Assembly (NCBI RefSeq): GCF_011604685.1
Contig: NZ_CP050063.1
Location: 952,501-1,016,500 of the forward strand
Origin: Spirosoma aureum
GTDB taxonomy: Bacteria > Bacteroidota > Bacteroidia > Cytophagales > Spirosomataceae
Reading direction: 5' to 3'
DNA length: 64,000 nt
Positions within the stretch are counted from its first letter, which is position 1. Every line of letters starts with the position of its first letter. The translations under genes were made by a program, and so were the position numbers. Positions 22,629-31,167 of this stretch are shown here, in pieces. Below the pieces are notes generated by a model that saw nothing but the letters and a program-made list of their open reading frames with translations, made no database searches and had not been told where the DNA came from.

Positions 22629-24260
22629 TTACCAGAAAACGGCGTATAGTACAGCCAAAATACTGAAAATTCCGATAGAACCTACAACAAACGAGGGCGA
22701 TACCCGGAACATCTTTCGATCGACAATCAATCCTTTAACCTGGATAGAATCTGTGAGTGATACGACAACCATCAGGGCTACGTCGATGCAAAATACCCAG
22801 GTTGTGCGGTGCAGAAAAGGAATTGGGTCGGCTGGTGCTCCGAACATCTCCGTCACTTCCGGCCAGAATTTAAGCAGTGTCGATAAGGGGATCGTGAGAA
22901 TTGCTACGGTTAGCGCAGCTCGGTTTGTGGCCCGTTTCCAGAAGAAACCCAACAGGAAAATGGCAAATACACCCGGTGTAATGAAGTTTGTATATTCCTG
23001 GATGTACTGATACACCTGATCGAGCGACCGTAGCATAGGGGCCAGGGCAATGGCTATGATGAAGGCCACAATAACGGCCCATCGGCCAACATTTACGAGC
23101 TTCTGCTCGGAGGCATTTTTATCAAAAAATTTCTTGTAAATATCCAGCGTAAAAATGGTCGATATGGAGTTGCATTTGCCCGCCAGAGAGGCCACAACAG
23201 CAGCTGTCAGGGCAGCAAAGGCCAGCCCTTTCATACCTACCGGAAGTAAGTTCATCAAGACAGGGTAAGCATGGTCGGGTTTTACCACGCCCGATGCATC
23301 GGTCATAGCCGCCCGGAATGGGCCACTCTGGTAGAGCACATAGGCTGCGATACCAGGAATAACAACGATCAGCGGGATCATCAGTTTCAGAAACGCAGCG
23401 AACAAGATGCCACTCCGGGCGGTCTTCAGATCAGCGCCTAACGCTCGTTGAACAATATATTGATTGCAGCCCCAGTACGACAGGTTATTGATCCACATGC
23501 CACCGGTTACCAGTGCCATACCCGGTAAAACGTCATAATATGGATGACCTTTCGCAAAAAACATGTGAAAATGCCCGTCTGCTTTTTGGCGTAACGACAT
23601 TAAGCCAGTCCAGACGCTCTGTGTTCCGGAGGTTTCCTGAGCTACCAATTGTAAGGCCAGATAGGTTACGACTAAGCCACCTATAATGAGCACAACGACC
23701 TGAATTACATCGGTATAACCAATTACTTTCATGCCGCCCAGCGTTATGAAAATGGCAAATATCGCCAGGCCAAAGGTGCAGGTCGTGAATGAAATTCCGG
23801 CCAATGATTCAATCGCAATGGCACCTAAATAGAGAATAGACGTAAGATTGACCAGAACATAAACCACAAGCCAGAATATAGCCAGAATAGTGCTGACGGT
23901 ATCACTATACCGTTGCGCCAGAAACTGCGGCATGGTGTAAATGTGGTTCCGAAGATAGATCGGTATGAAATAGACAGCCACAATTACCAGCGTGGCTGCT
24001 GCAATCCATTCGTACGATGAAATCGCCAGTCCCATCGCAAAGCCTGAACCAGCCATTCCAATGAAGTGCTCTGCCGAAATATTAGAGGCTATCAACGAAG
24101 CGCCAATTGCCCACCACGTTAGCGAACCCTCAGCCAGAAAAAAATCGTTTGTGTTGACCTCGTCGCGCCGTCGGCGGTGATAAACCCAGTAGCCATAGCC
24201 AACAACAACGACTAAGTAAATGAAGAAAACAATGTAATCTGCAGTAGCAAGGTGATTCAT
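22629..24260 (-). CDS. Sodium/sugar (SGLT-type) cotransporter
   Basis: SSS transporter of 543 residues from the ATG at 24260 (MNHLATADYIVFF). It has roughly 14 hydrophobic helices and hallmark SGLT sequences: FFLAEGSLTWWAIGASLIASNISAEHFIGMAGSG cut here as ASLIASNISAEHFIGMAG in TM2, LGGMKVIGYTDVIQVVVL, and NNLSYWGCNQYIVQRALGA. This subgroup includes glucose, galactose and myo-inositol carriers; with inositol oxygenase downstream, inositol is a reasonable guess. An open frame back to 24308 would run into the terminator stem, so it is rejected. Confidence 0.88.
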   Translation of the reverse strand: MNHLATADYIVFFIYLVVVVGYGYWVYHRRRRDEVNTNDFFLAEGSLTWWAIGASLIASNISAEHFIGMAGSGFAMGLAISSYEWIAAATLVIVAVYFIPIYLRNHIYTMPQFLAQRYSDTVSTILAIFWLVVYVLVNLTSILYLGAIAIESLAGISFTTCTFGLAIFAIFITLGGMKVIGYTDVIQVVVLIIGGLVVTYLALQLVAQETSGTQSVWTGLMSLRQKADGHFHMFFAKGHPYYDVLPGMALVTGGMWINNLSYWGCNQYIVQRALGADLKTARSGILFAAFLKLMIPLIVVIPGIAAYVLYQSGPFRAAMTDASGVVKPDHAYPVLMNLLPVGMKGLAFAALTAAVVASLAGKCNSISTIFTLDIYKKFFDKNASEQKLVNVGRWAVIVAFIIAIALAPMLRSLDQVYQYIQEYTNFITPGVFAIFLLGFFWKRATNRAALTVAILTIPLSTLLKFWPEVTEMFGAPADPIPFLHRTTWVFCIDVALMVVVSLTDSIQVKGLIVDRKMFRVSPSFVVGSIGIFSILAVLYAVFW

Positions 24261-24275
24261 GCGGGGGTAGGAATA

Positions 24276-24325
24276 GTAAAAAAAACGGGTGTCTTGTATA
24301 CAAAGCAAGACACCCGTTTTTTTTA
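24276..24325 (-). terminator. Strong intrinsic terminator after accC
   Basis: A perfect 21-bp inverted repeat (24276-24296 with 24305-24325) whose core CGGGTGTCTTG is flanked by eight T's on each strand, so it can work in both directions. On the minus strand it closes the accC transcript and isolates the transporter gene that begins at 24260. Confidence 0.9.
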
Positions 24326-24358
24326 CCAGATACGGCAGTTTTCGCCTGCGAATTAGTA

Positions 24359-25702
24359 CTACAATGTACTGAAATCGAACGTTTCCAGAAACGCCGTAGT
24401 GAACTGACCCGATTTGAATTTTGGATCGTCCATGAGTTTAATATGGAATGGAATCGTGGTTTTGATGCCTTCGATCACAAATTCCTGCAATGCCCGCTTC
24501 ATCCGCGTAATGACTTCCTCGCGTGATTGTCCTGATACGATCAGTTTCGCAATCATCGAGTCGTAGTTGGGGGGGATGGTGTAGCCCGTATACACATGAC
24601 TGTCTACGCGAACGCCGTGACCACCCGGCATGTGCAGCACGGTAATTTTACCCGGTGATGGCCGAAAACCATTCGCTGGATCTTCAGCGTTGATCCGGCA
24701 CTCCATCGCATAGAGTTTCGGAGTGTAGTTCCGCCCTGAAATTTCGACCCCGGCAGCCACCTTGATTTGCTCTTTAATCAAATCGAAGTCCGTTACTTCT
24801 TCCGTAATGGGGTGTTCAACCTGAATTCGGGTGTTCATTTCCATGAAATAGAACTTTCCATGCTTATCGACCAGAAACTCAACCGTTCCTGCGCCTTCAT
24901 AACCAATTGCCTGTGCACCTTTGATGGCGGCTGCCCCCATTTGCTCCCGAAGTTCCTGCGAAACAATGGGCGATGGAGTTTCTTCTACCAGTTTCTGGTG
25001 ACGGCGCTGAATCGAACAGTCACGTTCTGAGAGATGGCAGACTTTACCAAATTGGTCACCAACAATCTGAATTTCAATATGCCGCGGTTCTTCGACGAAT
25101 TTTTCCAGATAAAGTCCGTCATTACCAAAAGCAGCTCCGGCTTCGGTACGGGCATCATTCCAGGCTTTTTCAAACTCGCTTTCCGAGCGAATAATCCGCA
25201 TTCCTCGGCCTCCGCCACCAGCCGTTGCTTTCACAATGACGGGATAGCCCATTTCGGCCGAAAGGGTCTTGCCCTGTTCGATGGATTCCAACAGCCCCTC
25301 CGAACCCGGAATAACCGGAACACCAGCTGCTCTCATGGTCGCTTTGGCGGTTGCCTTATCGCCCATACCGTTGATTTGCTCGGCGGTGGCTCCAATAAAC
25401 TTAATGCCGTAATCGGCGCAGATTTGCGAGAATTCAGCATTTTCGGACAGGAACCCGTAGCCGGGGTGGATGGCATCCGCTCCGGTCACTTCAGCCGCCG
25501 AAATAATGCTGGGGATACTCAGATAAGATTGTTTGCTAACCGGTGGGCCAATGCAAACAGCCTCATCGGCAAAGCGCACATGCAGGCTGTCGCGGTCGGC
25601 TGTCGAAAAAACAGCTACCGTTTTTATACCCATTTCGCGGCAGGTCCGAATGATTCGCAATGCGATCTCACCTCGGTTGGCGATTAATATTTTCTTGAAC
25701 AT
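24359..25702 (-). CDS. accC: Acetyl-CoA carboxylase, biotin carboxylase subunit
   Basis: ATP-dependent carboxylation of the biotin on AccB, the first half-reaction of malonyl-CoA synthesis. At 447 residues it has the standard AccC length. It begins [20 protein letters not shown], has the ATP-grasp glycine-rich loop [12 protein letters not shown], the [17 protein letters not shown] segment, [14 protein letters not shown] with metal-binding Glu and Asn, and ends with the [16 protein letters not shown] region. It is the last gene of the minus-strand cluster and is separated from accB by an 87-bp spacer with 21-bp inverted arms. Confidence 0.97.
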
Positions 25703-25708
25703 AATGAG

Positions 25709-25777
25709 CGAATGAGTGAATGAGCGAATGAATGAATGTTTTGTTCGCGCCGATTTATTCGCTCATTCACTCATTCG
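25709..25777. repeat. Inverted word-repeat spacer between accB and accC
   Basis: Arms 25709-25729 and 25757-25777 are exact 21-bp reverse complements. Each arm repeats the words GAATGA and GTGAATGAG, so it is low in complexity. The 27-nt loop holds further GAATG copies. It covers most of the spacer and could fold in the mRNA between two genes of one operon. Confidence 0.75.
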
Positions 25778-25789
25778 CCCAATCACTAA

Positions 25790-26275
25790 TTAAATAGGTT
25801 CTACCAAAAACAGGGGCTGATCGTATTCGACCGGGGTCGCATTCTCGACGAGAACTTTTACGATGCGGCCAGATACCTCCGACTCGATTTCGTTGAACAG
25901 CTTCATGGCTTCAATGATGCAGACTACTTTACCTTCAGTGACGCTATCACCGACTTCAACAAATGAAGGCGTTTCGGGATTAGATGAACGGTAGAACGTT
26001 CCGATCATCGGCGATTTAATGGTTATGTAGTTTGACGTTTCAGCTTTGGGCGCTGCTGCAACCGTTGGGGCAGCAACTGCCGATGGCGCTGTGGTCTGTG
26101 GTTGTGGTGCTACAGGTGCAAACGCAGCCGGTGAAGGAGCTGTAGCCGGGGCGGTGGGTACGCCCGAACCGTACCGTTTTACGCTGATTTTAAGATCAGT
26201 CGTTTCGATATTTACCTCATCTAGGCCAGATTGGGAGATGAAGTCGATGAGTTGCTGAATGTCTTTTGTGCTCAT
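25790..26275 (-). CDS. accB: Acetyl-CoA carboxylase, biotin carboxyl carrier protein
   Basis: Carries biotin between the AccC and AccAD active sites. The 161-residue protein has an N-terminal IQQLIDFISQSGLDEVNIE segment, a flexible Ala/Pro linker (about residues 38-75) and the C-terminal lipoyl/biotinyl domain. The biotinylated lysine is K125 in the EAMKLFNEIE motif. Its neighbours efp upstream and accC downstream form the well-known efp-accB-accC order. Confidence 0.96.
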   Translation of the reverse strand: MSTKDIQQLIDFISQSGLDEVNIETTDLKISVKRYGSGVPTAPATAPSPAAFAPVAPQPQTTAPSAVAAPTVAAAPKAETSNYITIKSPMIGTFYRSSNPETPSFVEVGDSVTEGKVVCIIEAMKLFNEIESEVSGRIVKVLVENATPVEYDQPLFLVEPI

Positions 26276-26281
26276 AGCTTT

Positions 26282-26351
26282 TGAATGATGAATTATGAAT
26301 GATTAAGAACTGACAATTGCCATAGCGAATCGTTCACATTCATCATTCATA
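26282..26351. repeat. Inverted word-repeat spacer between efp and accB
   Basis: TGAATGATGAAT (26282-26293) pairs perfectly with 26338-26349, and an overlapping word TATGAATGA (26295-26303) pairs with 26343-26351. Each side thus carries two versions of the same word that compete for pairing. Confidence 0.6.
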
Positions 26352-26361
26352 AGTCAAAAAC

Positions 26362-26925
26362 TTATTTCACGCGTTCTACATAATCCCGTGTGCGGGTATC
26401 GACCTTAATTTTTTCGCCAGACTCTATAAAGAGCGGAACCATAATTTTAGCACCTGATTCTACCTCAACCCGCTTTTTGGGGCTGTTGGCTGTATCACCT
26501 TTAATGCCGGGTTCTGCATAGGTCACTTCCAGTTCGACAAACGGTGGCAGCTCACACGAAAGAGGGACTTCCGTTTCGGCATTGATCAGAATTTCAACTT
26601 CCTGGCCTTCTTTCATCAGATCGGCTCCATCAATGAGTTTTTCATCGATATTAATCTGATCAAACGACTCCTGATCCATAAAGTTATAGCCAGCTTCGTC
26701 CTTGTAAAGGTATTGGAATTTCCGGCGTTCAACCCGAACAGGATAGATCGTTACACCCGAGTTGAATGTATTATCGATTACCCGGCCCGTAGTCAGGCTT
26801 TTTAACTTTGTACGCACGAAAGCTGCGCCTTTACCGGGTTTCACGTGTTGAAATTCGGTAATTTGAAAGAGATCGTTGTTGAAGTTTAAGACTAGTCCAT
26901 TGCGGATGTCTGCGGTCGTTGCCAT
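26362..26925 (-). CDS. efp: Translation elongation factor P
   Basis: Relieves ribosome stalling at polyproline stretches. A 187-residue three-domain protein: the N-terminal KOW-like domain with the tip loop KPGKGAAF, where Lys 34 would be the modified residue of the E. coli type, then an OB domain (RKFQYLYKDEAGYNFMD) and a C-terminal OB domain ending IKVDTRTRDYVERVK. No EpmA/EpmB-type modification genes lie nearby. It belongs to the efp-accB-accC set and follows fabH in the cluster. Confidence 0.97.
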   Translation of the reverse strand: MATTADIRNGLVLNFNNDLFQITEFQHVKPGKGAAFVRTKLKSLTTGRVIDNTFNSGVTIYPVRVERRKFQYLYKDEAGYNFMDQESFDQINIDEKLIDGADLMKEGQEVEILINAETEVPLSCELPPFVELEVTYAEPGIKGDTANSPKKRVEVESGAKIMVPLFIESGEKIKVDTRTRDYVERVK

Positions 26926-26931
26926 TCTTAC

Positions 26932-27022
26932 TAGTTTACAGTTTTCAATGTAGACGTTTACAATTTTTGGCCTTTAGTTCCAGTAAAATACTGTAAACTA
27001 TTGCCAAAAAACAGTAAACTTA
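26932..27022. repeat. Inverted word-repeat spacer between fabH and efp
   Basis: TAGTTTACAGT (26932-26942) pairs perfectly with 26990-27000, and a second reversed copy, ACAGTAAACT, follows at 27011-27020. The spacer therefore has one forward and two reverse copies of the same word, as in neighbouring spacers that use other words. Confidence 0.6.
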
Positions 27023-27024
27023 TT

Positions 27025-28008
27025 TTAATACGCCCATTTCACGTAAGCAGCTCCCCATGTGAAGCCACCACCAAAAGCAGCTAATACCAGATTATCTCCT
27101 TTCTTTAGCTGTGATTCGTAATCAAATAAGCAAAGTGGTATAGTAGCAGCGGTGGTGTTGCCGTATTTATGGATATTCATCATGACCTTATCCGACTCTA
27201 TTCCCATTCGGTGAGCGGTAGCGTCAATAATTCGTTTATTGGCCTGGTGTGGCACCAGCCAGGCAACGTCGCTGCCGGCCAGGTGATTTCGTTCCATGAT
27301 TTCAGCCGACACATCGGCCATATTCTTGACGGCGAATTTAAACACAGCAGGGCCGTCCTGATAAACGTAATGCCAGCGTTTTTCGACGGTTTCGTGCGTG
27401 GGCGGATAGCGGCTTCCGCCGGCTTTCTGATACAAATGGTTTTGCCCGACTCCATCCGATTTGATGATCGAATCAATTACGCCAAAGCCGTCTTCGTTCG
27501 GTTCAAGCAAGACGGCACCGGCTCCATCGCCAAACAAAACACAGGTTGCCCGGTCGGTATAATCGATGATGGCCGACATCTTGTCTGCGCCAACAATAAC
27601 TATTTTCCGGTATTTGCCCGTCTCGATAAACTGTGATCCGATGGTTAATGCGTACAGAAATCCTGAACAGGCGGCCTGAATATCGAAACTACCGATATTC
27701 CGAATTCCCACCATATCGCAGATCAGGTTCGCCGTGCCGGGAAATACGTAGTCGGGGGTGGTTGTTGCACAGATAAGCAGATCAATGTCTTCAGGTCTGG
27801 TATTTGTTTTCTCAAGTAGACCAGCTACTGCTTTGGCTCCCATATGCGATGAACCCATCCCTTCTCCTTTCAGAATATGGCGTTCTTTGATACCCGTTCG
27901 GCTGGTTATCCATTCATCGTTTGTATCTACCATGCGCTCCAATTCGGCATTGGTCAGCACGTAGTCGGGGACATAGCCGTGGACTCCTGTTATGGCAGCT
28001 TTACTCAT
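27025..28008 (-). CDS. fabH: Beta-ketoacyl-ACP synthase III
   Basis: Starts fatty acid synthesis by condensing an acyl-CoA primer with malonyl-ACP. The 327-residue protein (from MSKAAITGV; a 5-residue-longer start is also open) carries the Cys-His-Asn triad C114 ([10 protein letters not shown]), H254 (VPHQANKR) and N284 (YGNTTAA), and ends with the [15 protein letters not shown] signature. Transcribed after plsX, as in many bacteria (rpmF-plsX-fabH). Confidence 0.96.
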
Positions 28009-28035
28009 AAGTAGGTGGTACAAAAAAGTTTATAA

Positions 28036-28104
28036 TTTAAAGTTTATAATTGTCAGTTTAGTTTCTGGTGTATCAACTGAAAACTATAGACTGTAAACTT
28101 TAAA
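28036..28104. repeat. Inverted word-repeat spacer between plsX and fabH
   Basis: TTTAAAGTTTA (28036-28046) pairs perfectly with 28094-28104; around it, AAGTTTATAATT, CAGTTTAGTTT and their reversed relatives give a longer imperfect match. The right arm runs up to the plsX stop codon. Confidence 0.55.
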
Positions 28105-29046
28105 CTAACTGAGGGCTTGTGCAATTTTAGTGTAAGCGTCTGATTCAACCTGTCGGATGGCCAGACTTATCATGTTTTTAATGGCCAACGGGGACGAGAT
28201 CCCGTGAGCAATAATTACGTTGCCATTGACGCCCAGAATCGGACTGCCGCCCACTGACTCGTAATTGGTTTTGTCTAAAAAATCATCACTGATGCCCCGT
28301 TGGGTTGCCATTGTGTAGAACGACTCACCCAGCTTAAACATCGTATTGCCTGTAAAGCCATCCGTGACAATGACATCGGCCTGTCCGGCAAAGAAATCTC
28401 CGCCCTCGATGTTGCCTACGAAATTAATTTTACGGCTATCTTTCAGGAGTTGATGGGCTGCCTGAGCCACAAGTGATCCCTTTTGCTCTTCGGTACCGAT
28501 GTTCATCAGAGCGACACGTGGGCGTTCAATACCAAACGTGTACTGGGCATAGATCGATCCAATTTCGCCAAACTGAGCCAGCATTTCAGGTTTACAGTCA
28601 GCATTGGCTCCAATATCGAGCATAACGGCATGACCGCCCGTAATTTGTGGGACAAAACCGGCGATACACGGTCGTAAAATGCCTTCAATTGCTTTAATGC
28701 TAAATAGTGCGCCTACGTGCATGGCCCCTGTGTTTCCGGCACTGCAAAAAGCGTTGACCTGACCATCTTTCAAAAGCTTAAACCCAACTCCGATGCTGGA
28801 ATTGGGTTTCTGCGAGAGCGCTTTGGTTGGGTGCTCACTCATTTCAATGACGTCGTCGGCGTTGACCAATTCGATATTGGTAACGGCTTCCGCACCGTGT
28901 TTCTGGATTAATTCCTGCACAAGTGACTGCTTGCCTATCAGCACAATAGCTACGTTCTCCGGCAGTTCAGCAGCGGCCATTACAACTCCTTCTACAATAG
29001 CTTCGGGGGCAAAATCGCCACCCATTGCGTCCACTGCAATTTTCAT
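28105..29046 (-). CDS. plsX: Phosphate acyltransferase PlsX
   Basis: Converts acyl-ACP to acyl-phosphate, the substrate of PlsY in phospholipid synthesis. The 313-residue protein starts with the typical [20 protein letters not shown] and contains [32 protein letters not shown] and [14 protein letters not shown], all conserved in PlsX. Gene order with rpmF upstream and fabH downstream is classical. Nothing unusual in the coding sequence. Confidence 0.97.
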
Positions 29047-29124
29047 TGACTCCGTTTGTTCAATACCTCCCAGATAAGCTGGTTTGCAATAAAAATATGC
29101 GTAAAAATAGGGAGGTAGCGGGCA

Positions 29125-29172
29125 ATAAAAAAGTATTTCACGTTCATCTTCGGGAAGACGTCAGCGAAATAC
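29125..29172 (-). terminator. Probable intrinsic terminator or attenuator after rpmF
   Basis: On the minus strand GTATTTC (29172-29166) pairs with GAAATAC (29139-29133), with an inner TCTTC/GAAGA hairpin, followed by CTTTTTTATT. It sits 20 nt after the rpmF stop and before plsX, so it may reduce transcription into plsX. Confidence 0.6.
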
Positions 29173-29192
29173 TCTTTATAAATGAATGATAA

Positions 29193-29387
29193 TTAGGCTG
29201 TTTTAGCGTAATTCTCAATGATAATTTGCCCTTTGTAAAATAGATTGCCCTCAAAAACGTGAGCATGATGACGCTCATGAACTTCGCCAGTCTGGGCGTC
29301 GGTCGAGAGGGTTACGGCCGTAGCCTTGTAATGAGTTCTGCGCTTATCGCGCCGGGTGCTGGAGTGGCGTCGTTTGGGGTGTGCCAT
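29193..29387 (-). CDS. rpmF: 50S ribosomal protein L32
   Basis: Small basic ribosomal protein of 64 residues. It starts [20 protein letters not shown], which is diagnostic for L32. The four-cysteine zinc knuckle of many L32 proteins (CxxCG) is missing, so this is the zinc-free type. It lies between yceD and plsX, the usual order, and a hairpin with a T-run follows it. Confidence 0.96.
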
Positions 29388-29395
29388 TTTTTTAA

Positions 29396-29485
29396 GTTGT
29401 AAAGTTGTATAGTTACAAAGTCGTAGAGTTGGCTGTGGTAGAGACTATAAATCGAAAAGCTCTACAACGTTTAAACGCTACAACT
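29396..29485. repeat. Inverted word-repeat spacer between yceD and rpmF
   Basis: AGTTGTAAAGTTGTATAGTT on the left side has reversed counterparts CTACAAC and GCTACAACTC on the right (29462-29485), and GTAGAG near 29423 pairs with CTCTAC at 29460-29465. The match is imperfect, but the same design of a short word repeated and mirrored is evident. Confidence 0.45.
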
Positions 29486-29493
29486 CAATTTAT

Positions 29494-30036
29494 TTAGTTG
29501 TCACTCAGTTTACGCAAGGCCGCCCAGCGAGGGTCAATAGCAGGCTGGTCGTCTTCATTAGTCGTTTCAGCATCAGAGCGATAGATTACTTTACCGTTCT
29601 GCTCATCGTCAATTTCGTCATCCTCATCACGAAAACGGGGATGCAGGCGCTTCATGGGTAGCGACAGACTGATGAACTCAAAAATGTAACGGGCTATATT
29701 AATGGTCGCCGTGTTACGCTCAATCAGTTCAATTTCGTCGCTCAATTCTTCGTTATGGTCACCAAACTTCAGCAGCATCGTCTGCTGCGTGTCGACGGGT
29801 TCATCATATTCATCAAGGCTCCGATCGCAAATCTGTTCAACGGCGCCCGTAATATGAAAAGCCAGCCGAATCATTGTCTCCGACTTGTCCAGAATCAGGT
29901 GCGTCTGAACGTTCCCTTTTTGGATCAAATCCTGCTCAAGCGCGGCAAAAAACGCATCCCCCGACGTAAAGTCGTATTCGTAGCGTTTGTTATCCAGCCC
30001 GACAATGTTGATGTCGTATGCGCGTAGTGTATTCAC
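29494..30036 (-). CDS. yceD: DUF177 / YceD family protein
   Basis: A 180-residue member of the YceD family, which accompanies rpmF in most bacteria and has been linked to 23S rRNA/ribosome accumulation. The family shows here in the central hydrophobic-acidic pattern, and the protein ends with the conserved DPRWAALRKLSDN. The many acidic residues (RFRDEDDEIDDEQ) are typical. I chose GTG 30036 as the start: it has a GGAG 10 nt upstream, and the alternative TTG at 30084 lies inside the promoter box. Confidence 0.85.
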   Translation of the reverse strand: MNTLRAYDINIVGLDNKRYEYDFTSGDAFFAALEQDLIQKGNVQTHLILDKSETMIRLAFHITGAVEQICDRSLDEYDEPVDTQQTMLLKFGDHNEELSDEIELIERNTATINIARYIFEFISLSLPMKRLHPRFRDEDDEIDDEQNGKVIYRSDAETTNEDDQPAIDPRWAALRKLSDN

Positions 30037-30081
30037 CTCGTATCTCCTTCGCTCCGGCAGCCCGGTCCAAAAATAAGACCG

Positions 30082-30089
30082 CAAAGGTA
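30082..30089 (-). promoter_or_regulatory. -7 promoter box of the yceD-rpmF-plsX cluster
   Basis: TACCTTTG on the minus strand; the extended sequence TACCTTTGCGGTC is identical to that before bioF. The box lies 45 nt upstream of GTG 30036, leaving room for a short leader with a ribosome binding site. Confidence 0.6.
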
Positions 30090-30273
30090 CGAAACGTTTG
30101 TTAATCAGGAAAGTGGTAGGCAGAAAAAAGGTTGTTTTGCTTTGAGAAATAATGTTTTATTATCGTTAGCTACCAGCAATCGTCAAACGAATAAAGTGAC
30201 TCATAGGCCTTCCCGCATGGCTATTACGCATTTTTTTTGTATATTTTTCTGATGCATCTATGCCAAACAACCT

Positions 30274-31167
30274 ATGCTATTAACAATTATTACCATTACC
30301 ACCTTTGCCGTTTTGATCCGAATCGTAGCCAATCCGCTCTCGAATGTATTTCAGAAGCAGTTAACGCATCGATCCGCTGATCCACTCTTTGTTATCTCAG
30401 CAACTTACGGATTCCTGGCACTGACTTGTTTGCTATTCTGGCCACAGCTTCGCTTTACGGGTTTGCCAATGGCCTTCTGGCAAAGTATGCTGGTTGTAGG
30501 CCTGTTTGCGATGGTCGGAAATGTATTTCTGGTGAAAGCGCTTCATATCGGTGATCTGTCGGTGTTAGGACCCATTAATGCGTATAAATCAGTAGTAGGC
30601 CTTATTGCCGGCATTTTTTTGCTGAACGAAATTCCGGGCTGGTGGGGTCTGGCGGGCGTTCTGCTGATCGTTGCAGGGAGTTATGTGGTGCTGAGTAATA
30701 AGCAACAGCGCAAAGGCTTCTCCTGGCATCTATTTCAGCGACAGGAAGTGAAATTAAGGCTGGCAGCGCTGGTATTTTCGGCCATTGATGGGGCATTTCT
30801 GAAAAAAGCAATTGTCCTGTCGACGCCAGCTATCGCCTTTTTCTATTGGTGCCTGTTCGGCTTCGGTTTTACATTCATCTGGATCGTGCTCACTATGAGA
30901 AATCGCTGGCAGGAGCAGACAACGCTGCTGTTTTCGCAGAAAATTACGTACTTGGCCCTGTTCCTGACTGTGGGCATTACGCAGGTGGCCAGTAATGTGG
31001 CTCTGGCCGGTATGCCAGTGGGTTATGCTCTGGCATTATTCCAGACGTCGGCGCTGGTAAGTGTAGTATTCGGATACCAGTTTTTTAACGAACAGGGTAT
31101 CGTTCGAAAGCTAATTGGAGCCGGTATTATGGTTGCTGGCGCTGTGCTGATTACCGTTCTGGGGTAA
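30274..31167 (+). CDS. EamA/DMT family transporter
   Basis: Inner-membrane transporter of 297 residues with ten predicted hydrophobic helices in two halves, the EamA arrangement. Segments such as VLGPINAYKSVVGLIAGIFL and the second-half counterpart GMPVGYALALFQTSALVSVV show the internal repeat. A short basic loop (NKQQRKGFSWHLFQRQEVK) separates the halves. Substrate unknown. It stands alone, divergent from yceD. Confidence 0.82.
   Translation: MLLTIITITTFAVLIRIVANPLSNVFQKQLTHRSADPLFVISATYGFLALTCLLFWPQLRFTGLPMAFWQSMLVVGLFAMVGNVFLVKALHIGDLSVLGPINAYKSVVGLIAGIFLLNEIPGWWGLAGVLLIVAGSYVVLSNKQQRKGFSWHLFQRQEVKLRLAALVFSAIDGAFLKKAIVLSTPAIAFFYWCLFGFGFTFIWIVLTMRNRWQEQTTLLFSQKITYLALFLTVGITQVASNVALAGMPVGYALALFQTSALVSVVFGYQFFNEQGIVRKLIGAGIMVAGAVLITVLG

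Follow-up and report, generated by a model that had tools for sequence, protein, structure and literature searches.

The spacers of an acc/fab gene cluster on the minus strand of Spirosoma aureum contig NZ_CP050063.1 (positions 952,501 to 1,016,500; this whole 64,000-nucleotide stretch is termed the window) contain stem-loops whose arms are built from short repeated words, and the pairing of these arms is kept across the genus while the words themselves change. Comparison of the sequences makes evident the position of the hairpins, their pairing, the periodicity of their words, the inheritance of words by spacer, concerted changes of the two arms, and inversion of the loop. It is hypothesized that the hairpins are formed and maintained at the DNA level by template switching and slippage, and that they are retained for a role at the 3' end of the upstream gene; taken as a whole, this explanation is preferred tentatively, with a likelihood slightly below one half.

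Mirrored Words in the Spacers of the acc/fab Cluster

Each spacer was scored by its best Watson-Crick stem against 200 dinucleotide shuffles (p floor 0.005), and the scoring was repeated with 500 shuffles. The accB-accC spacer has a stem of 25 against a shuffled mean of 7.7 (z 12), the efp-accB spacer 18 against 8.0 (z 7), and the plsX-fabH spacer 18 against 8.8 (z 5.7), all with p = 0.005 (0.002 with 500 shuffles); the fabH-efp and yceD-rpmF spacers both reach 14, against shuffled means of 8.7 and 8.3, with p = 0.015 (0.014 with 500 shuffles). An earlier note, made from the letters of the window, had described all five spacers as a word repeated on the left and mirrored on the right; their places, lengths and words (Table 1) agree with that description, and the mirroring is strong in the first three and weak in the other two. 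The run of word spacers was also described as consecutive, however it is broken by the rpmF-plsX spacer, which that note omitted and which contains no word. The accB-accC spacer has the longest arms, 29 nt with two mismatches and approximately 22 bp uninterrupted, in line with the 21 bp of perfect pairing first reported; folded as mRNA the spacer reaches −41.5 kcal/mol. Shuffled spacers thus score lower than natural ones; shuffling does blend a left half rich in G with a right half rich in C, and the control scores are somewhat too low for this reason, but perfect arms of at least 22 bp cannot be explained by this artefact of mixed halves.

Persistence across Spirosoma and Other Genera

An efp match was found in 34 of 36 searched Spirosoma genomes, the source genome (G000; other G numbers denote relatives and L numbers loci) included, and the gene order of the cluster is the same in all 34 efp-bearing genomes; the contig of G024 stops before accC. 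With 500 shuffles and p ≤ 0.01 in these 33-34 genomes, the hairpin is significant at accB-accC in 31/33 (the exceptions being G028, p 0.018, and G033, p 0.012), at efp-accB in 20/33, at fabH-efp in 18/34, at plsX-fabH in 14/34, and at yceD-rpmF in 8/34; the rpmF-plsX spacer is significant in 5/34. Pairing is therefore kept in relatives at the positions named in the earlier note, though at yceD-rpmF in few genomes. The accB-accC spacer folds at −35 to −89 kcal/mol in 32 of 33 genomes (−16.5 in G033), and its fold mostly ends no more than about 15 nt from the accC start codon.

The word-class patterns were composed after viewing the spacers, and the following class counts are descriptive. The GAAWGAGY class occupies accB-accC in 30/33 genomes and occurs three times elsewhere in the cluster; the AGTTGTAAAGTTGTA class is found in yceD-rpmF only (12/34), and the TATGATGTATGAT class in fabH-efp (13/34) and once in efp-accB. 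The AGTTTACAGTTTAC class is most frequent in plsX-fabH (12/34), with six occurrences in yceD-rpmF, three in fabH-efp, and one each in efp-accB and accB-accC. Across the genus, a given spacer thus tends to retain one word class. The claim of a separate word for every spacer holds insofar as word class follows the orthologous spacer, but fails in that GAAWGAGY is also present at other places in the genome.

Two further motifs were seen in these hairpins. A short GC-rich insert (about CCGGNCCGCCGNNGCGG) breaks the word tracts of accB-accC in L072 and L083, efp-accB in L052 and L081, and yceD-rpmF in L053 and L057; its pattern has no matches in 1.26 Mb of the source genome. The motif GCTGRCGC is over-represented in word-hairpin loops (7 of 100 loops, many of them orthologs, against 0.13 when shuffled), for instance in the accB-accC loops of L066, L073, and L054.

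Outside Spirosoma, 43 distinct loci mostly from the same family were compared (46 were given, and three with a duplicate efp were dropped). Spacers shorter than 25 or longer than 400 nt were left unscored (five at accB-accC, four at efp-accB, five at fabH-efp, and 11 at plsX-fabH) and are counted in the denominators; p ≤ 0.005 is reached at accB-accC in 15/41, at efp-accB in 11/41, at fabH-efp in 6/42, and at plsX-fabH in 8/41. The Dyadobacter, Persicitalea, and Aquirufa loci displayed have no word hairpins in the four, many of these spacers being short in those genera. Where a hairpin is present the word often differs from those of Spirosoma: the accB-accC word of Arcicella is CAGTTATCAGTTATC, which corresponds to MacGregor's TAACTGA word (PMC4679880), and that of Larkinella is GAATGAGT, which is shared with Spirosoma. 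In one Dyadobacter locus (L171), the 305-nt yceD-rpmF spacer contains a tandem cluster of CGGCTTTAGCCGACGG-type palindromes.

Changes within the Arms

If pairing were needed in the transcript, sense-strand G-U mismatches would be expected to exceed A-C mismatches. The two are nearly equal in 95 periodic co-directional stems from the source-genome sample and the relatives' loci (110 G-U, 105 A-C) and in 105 stems of a wider class with a G-rich, C-poor 5' arm (118 and 113); a three-species sample gives 21 and 27 in 28 periodic stems and 48 and 49 in 65 wider-class stems, whereas the other stems of that sample favour G-U (147 vs 112 A-C, p 0.03). These mismatch sets overlap, and the orthologs in them are not independent.

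Close relatives were compared in 13 non-independent pairs with at least 88% identity in plsX, efp, and rpmF together, using spacers at least 70% identical; 518 base pairs are unchanged, 31 have single changes, three have paired changes that still pair, two have paired changes that do not, and 13 are gapped. In another six hairpins, orthologous between G000 and G004, 148 pairs are unchanged, 18 have single changes, one has a double change left unpaired, and nine are gapped.

Larger differences affect both arms together. Rewriting of the accB-accC hairpin separates G000 from G004 (coding identity 97.4%) and G009 from G027 (96.8%); G006 and G027 differ by a 4-nt insertion at mirror places in both arms, and the GC-rich insert stands in both arms in G035 (L083) but in a single arm in G022. 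At L034:10301, G000 and G004 have the loop in opposite orientations, the one case among six orthologs (reverse-complement identity 0.94, forward 0.56). A scan of 297 loop pairs gave one inverted loop, that of accB-accC between G004 and G007 (0.88 and 0.53), and nine pairs alike in the forward direction, with 0/297 when shuffled. At L121:8402, G000 and G004 differ by one 8-nt unit in one arm. Point changes decay singly and large events are concerted, all such events being read as pairwise differences without polarity of change.

The earlier note had suggested a process that makes inverted repeats locally, either template switching or selection for a structured spacer; template switching is the better supported, in view of the two loop inversions, the mirrored insertions, and the equality of G-U and A-C mismatches; template switching, rather than recombination between the arms, is inferred to be the agent.

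Distribution and Position behind Genes

Mirrored spacers are not confined to this cluster, which is not exceptional in this respect. Among co-directional spacers of 60−130 nt in 33 relatives' loci, p ≤ 0.01 is reached by 71/147 within the cluster and by 62/135 of the others, so other spacers score alike; a source-genome sample outside the cluster gives 56/243 for the same size and orientation. Ordinary terminators are included in these counts.

A context survey covered 2.06 Mb of three species with simple dicodon gene calling, by which gene ends and starts are approximate. With a minimum length of 30 nt, it comprised 1123 spacers between co-directional or convergent genes and 274 between divergent ones. 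A stem was called periodic at a score of at least 16 with an arm lag identity of at least 0.65; 20 such stems were found in the co-directional or convergent spacers and none in the divergent ones (Fisher p 0.02), and with a laxer lag identity of 0.55 the counts are 37 and two (p 0.02). These tests count stems and treat them as one per spacer. The wider class gives 49 and one (p 3.8e-4), however it mixes in plain terminators such as that of accC, and 26 of 54 stems scoring at least 18 in all contexts fall below 0.55 periodicity; the recount by periodicity was made for this reason, and it weakened the divergent result from p 3.8e-4 to 0.02. In the source-genome sample, inverted 9-mers occur within 74/340 co-directional spacers (6.1 when shuffled), 58/82 convergent spacers (1.1), and 1/48 divergent spacers (1.25), terminators included; direct 9-mer repeats occur in 26/340 co-directional spacers against 7.5.

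In gaps of 130−600 nt the stem is closer to the upstream stop than to the following start for 5/6 periodic, 15/17 wider-class, and 46/63 other stems. The median distance of wider-class stems from the stop, using the gene ends of the simple caller, is 0.5 nt for the 30 stems in gaps of 40−130 nt and 10 nt for the 17 in gaps of 130−600 nt. Word hairpins, like terminators, mostly follow genes.

The arms of word hairpins are themselves periodic. In the G-rich-arm class, 32 of 86 arms repeat with an identity of at least 0.7 at lag 8 (23 arms) or lag 7 (nine arms); mean lag identity is 0.625 in word arms against 0.467 when shuffled, and 0.424 against 0.41 in other hairpins. Since the word arms have this 7−8 bp periodicity and other hairpins lack it, slippage would be a natural second process. 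Among stems scoring at least 18, left-arm skews of at least 0.4 outnumber those of −0.4 or below by 27 to 3 in the source genome (n = 117) and by 63 to 2 in relatives (n = 135); as this polarity is strand-symmetric, it is uninformative on the strand used.

Proposed Origin, Function, and Alternatives

In the explanation preferred here, the spacer is considered to be a stem-loop that begins just past the upstream stop codon and occupies the spacer as far as the next gene; its arms are short tracts of a 7−8 bp word, which slippage would lengthen or shorten. Polymerase template switching would copy one arm into the other, invert the loop, and sometimes rewrite the entire hairpin; because the arms would be copied at the DNA level, the word could change while pairing persists. 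The hairpins would be retained behind genes, and not between divergent starts, as a 3'-end or ribosome-termination structure, which may keep post-termination ribosomes away from the next gene, protect the end of the upstream mRNA, or both; mRNA end protection may be equally possible as a role. Such a function at the stop codon or 3' end is favoured at somewhat less than an even chance. The earlier note's proposals of mRNA processing, differential stability, or pausing may also apply; the location past the stop is the single observation in favour of any role in the transcript. Several results weigh against this explanation. The divergent-spacer deficit of periodic hairpins rests on small counts, with two divergent stems at the laxer cut, and the weakened p value led to a lower rating for this explanation and a higher one for its neutral rival. 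Single uncompensated changes dominate in both comparisons of relatives (31 single vs three paired, and 18 vs none), so that selection on pairing appears loose, if any. Loop inversion is also possible through recombination between the arms, and a strong fold near the start codon should hinder accC initiation. The word hairpins also lie between co-directional genes that are probably one unit, where ribosome termination structures are described as depleted (PMC7518266).

The main rival is that of a neutral self-repairing repeat: slipping tracts mirrored by template switching would be passengers, and their rarity between divergent genes would reflect promoter breakage only. The equality of G-U and A-C mismatches, the predominance of single uncompensated changes, the loop inversions, and the turnover of words between genera all agree with it, but the persistence of the hairpin in 31/33 genomes at accB-accC against 8/34 at yceD-rpmF suggests locus-specific retention, and in long gaps the few cases available are placed near the stop; this purely mutational account is considered a real possibility, if less probable than the explanation above. 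Selection at the RNA level alone, in which the transcript needs the stem and point mutations in the arms are compensated, would account for the survival of pairing through word change and for the three paired changes in close relatives; the transcript strand has no G-U excess in the periodic stems, however, long arms have been rewritten in genomes whose coding DNA is 97% identical, and the loops invert, and this alternative is judged unlikely.

A dispersed mobile repeat family inserting between genes, similar to repetitive extragenic palindromic (REP) elements, miniature inverted-repeat transposable elements (MITEs), or the short tandemly repeated repetitive (STRR) sequences, is slightly more doubtful still. 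The GAAWGAGY mirrored pattern does occur at six distinct places of the source genome (seven matches, control 0) and in 19 of 291 genomes of the order, 18 of these from one family, but copies of a REP or MITE would be alike including the loop, whereas the loops at the six same-word places of G000 all differ; the word class is also bound to the orthologous spacer, and several other words behave alike. The spacers accordingly appear not to be copies of one mobile repeat, in agreement with the earlier note. Intrinsic terminators or attenuators within the operon would fit the contexts, since these match those of ordinary hairpins in being co-directional and convergent, but the arms are periodic words rather than compact GC stems, and a T-run of at least five at or after the stem is present in 8/88 G-rich-arm stems, a poorly discriminating figure given 18/133 in the comparison class; this is held to be the least probable of the readings. 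A broader generalization, that Spirosomataceae have a class of self-templating operon-spacer hairpins that are locus-specific and vertically inherited, with arms acting as mutual repair copies, structure rather than sequence inherited across genera, and selection on their presence behind the stop codon, may be correct but is rather improbable as a whole.

Pairing in hairpins is usually taken to prove that selection acts on the RNA and that mutations compensate one another. The present set is a large natural collection from dozens of genomes that share their gene order, in which pairing is kept, words change, and the signature of the transcript strand is absent; it would allow measurement of the extent to which hairpins can be built and maintained by DNA template switching alone. 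The effect of a strong stem between stop and start on an essential operon could be tested separately, in bacteria whose phylum makes little use of Shine-Dalgarno sequences for initiation.

Relation to Known Repeats and Structures

The cyanobacterial STRR heptamer repeats are tandem 7-bp intergenic words. Tandem words of 7−8 bp in intergenic DNA are common to both systems, but those of Spirosoma are mirrored and spacer-specific; STRR repeats are not known to form mirrored arms confined to a single spacer. Porphyromonas gingivalis reportedly has a minisatellite within a MITE (PMC4596501), by the title of that paper a mobile element; this resembles the present case in having tandem repeats inside an inverted-repeat element of a Bacteroidetes genome.

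TAACTGA heptamers are described as intergenic direct repeats of Beggiatoaceae, cyanobacteria, and some Bacteroidetes, mostly just before start codons; Flexibacter litoralis has a reverse-oriented set right after a stop codon, and one inverted set is given among 170 in the main genome (PMC4679880). The likeness lies in short words repeated in intergenic DNA and in the use of the same word in Arcicella accB-accC and upstream of some rpmF genes; the TAACTGA repeats are one direct word, whereas the Spirosoma words are several, depend on the spacer, and are mirrored into hairpins. In G006, G009, and G027 (L056, L059, L075), unpaired AACTGATAACTGACAACTGTAAACTG runs that resemble the Beggiatoaceae repeats stand directly before the rpmF start.

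Ribosome termination structures (RTS) are described as stable folds directly past stop codons that lower re-initiation in a synthetic operon and are enriched in E. coli gaps of at least 25 nt and depleted inside operons (PMC7518266). By that description the word hairpins are alike in being stable structure directly after the stop codon, but RTS may be any fold, whereas the word hairpins are long, lie between co-directional genes, and reach the next start. Template switching has been proposed to make, keep, and repair RNA hairpins (PMC8794818), and in yeast it yields homogenization of arms and inversion of loops (PMC8604942); the multi-base concerted arm changes and the loop inversion between near-identical arms are similar, however those cases concern RNA-gene histories and yeast coding genes, and here tandem words serve as the substrate, in the spacers of operons at many places in one genome. 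No description of mirrored-word spacers was found in the literature searched, as judged by titles and the openings of abstracts; the parts, namely word repeats, termination structures, and template-switch hairpins, are known, and their combination was found without description there.

Genes of the Cluster and the rpmF-plsX Spacer

The source genome is a single contig of 8.9 Mb, and its efp protein is 94% identical to those of named relatives including Spirosoma oryzae and S. arboris. On the minus strand the genes run yceD-like, rpmF, plsX, fabH, efp, accB, and accC. NCBIfam backs all of these names but one (six of seven; Table 1). The exception has no NCBIfam match at 1e-8, and its name, yceD, follows the earlier note.

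Table 1. Spacers, genes, and other features of the acc/fab cluster, with positions in the window.
Feature	Position	Strand	Length	Description
accB-accC spacer	25703..25789	-	87 nt	word GAAWGAGY (8 bp), mirrored; arms 25705-25733 and 25753-25781
efp-accB spacer	26276..26361	-	86 nt	word GAATGATGAAT, mirrored; arms ~26278-26306 and 26338-26356
fabH-efp spacer	26926..27024	-	99 nt	word AGTTTACAGT, weaker mirror; arms 26932-26945 and 26987-27000
plsX-fabH spacer	28009..28104	-	96 nt	word TTTAAAGTTTACAG, mirrored; arms 28033-28059 and 28081-28107, 3 nt inside plsX
yceD-rpmF spacer	29388..29493	-	106 nt	word AGTTGTAAAGTTGT, weak mirror
rpmF-plsX spacer	29047..29192	-		no word; imperfect hairpin ~29128-29177, then T6 and promoter-like stretch
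accC	24359..25702	-		biotin carboxylase; TIGR00514, 734 bits (cut-off 626.5)
accB	25790..26275	-		biotin carboxyl carrier protein; TIGR00531
efp	26362..26925	-		elongation factor P; TIGR00038
fabH	27025..28008	-		beta-ketoacyl-ACP synthase III; TIGR00747; ATG start 28008 from gene call
plsX	28105..29046	-		phosphate acyltransferase; TIGR00182
rpmF	29193..29387	-		ribosomal protein L32; TIGR01031
yceD-like gene	29494..30036	-		upstream of rpmF; same position in 34/34 genomes
Hairpin 3' of accC	24276..24326	-		perfect, 21 bp, with A/T tracts; stem score 21

In an Rfam scan of 24000-30500 no family reached the gathering score, in the rpmF-plsX spacer or elsewhere; one CsrB match and five matches to miRNA families scored far lower. 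The stem of this spacer scores 11 (p = 0.03, 200 shuffles); its hairpin of 20 imperfect pairs, AGTATTTCG...CGAAATACT, and the T6 and AT-rich ACCTCCCTATTTTTACGC that follow are almost invariant in 34 aligned Spirosoma genomes. The arrangement is predicted to be a terminator followed by a promoter, and the hairpin 3' of accC is likewise terminator-like and probably the end of a unit; with a terminator and promoter in the rpmF-plsX spacer, the genes from plsX to accC may form a single transcription unit that stops at that hairpin. It is also possible that the rpmF-plsX element is an attenuator or leader of plsX; what variation its stem has is mostly one-sided.

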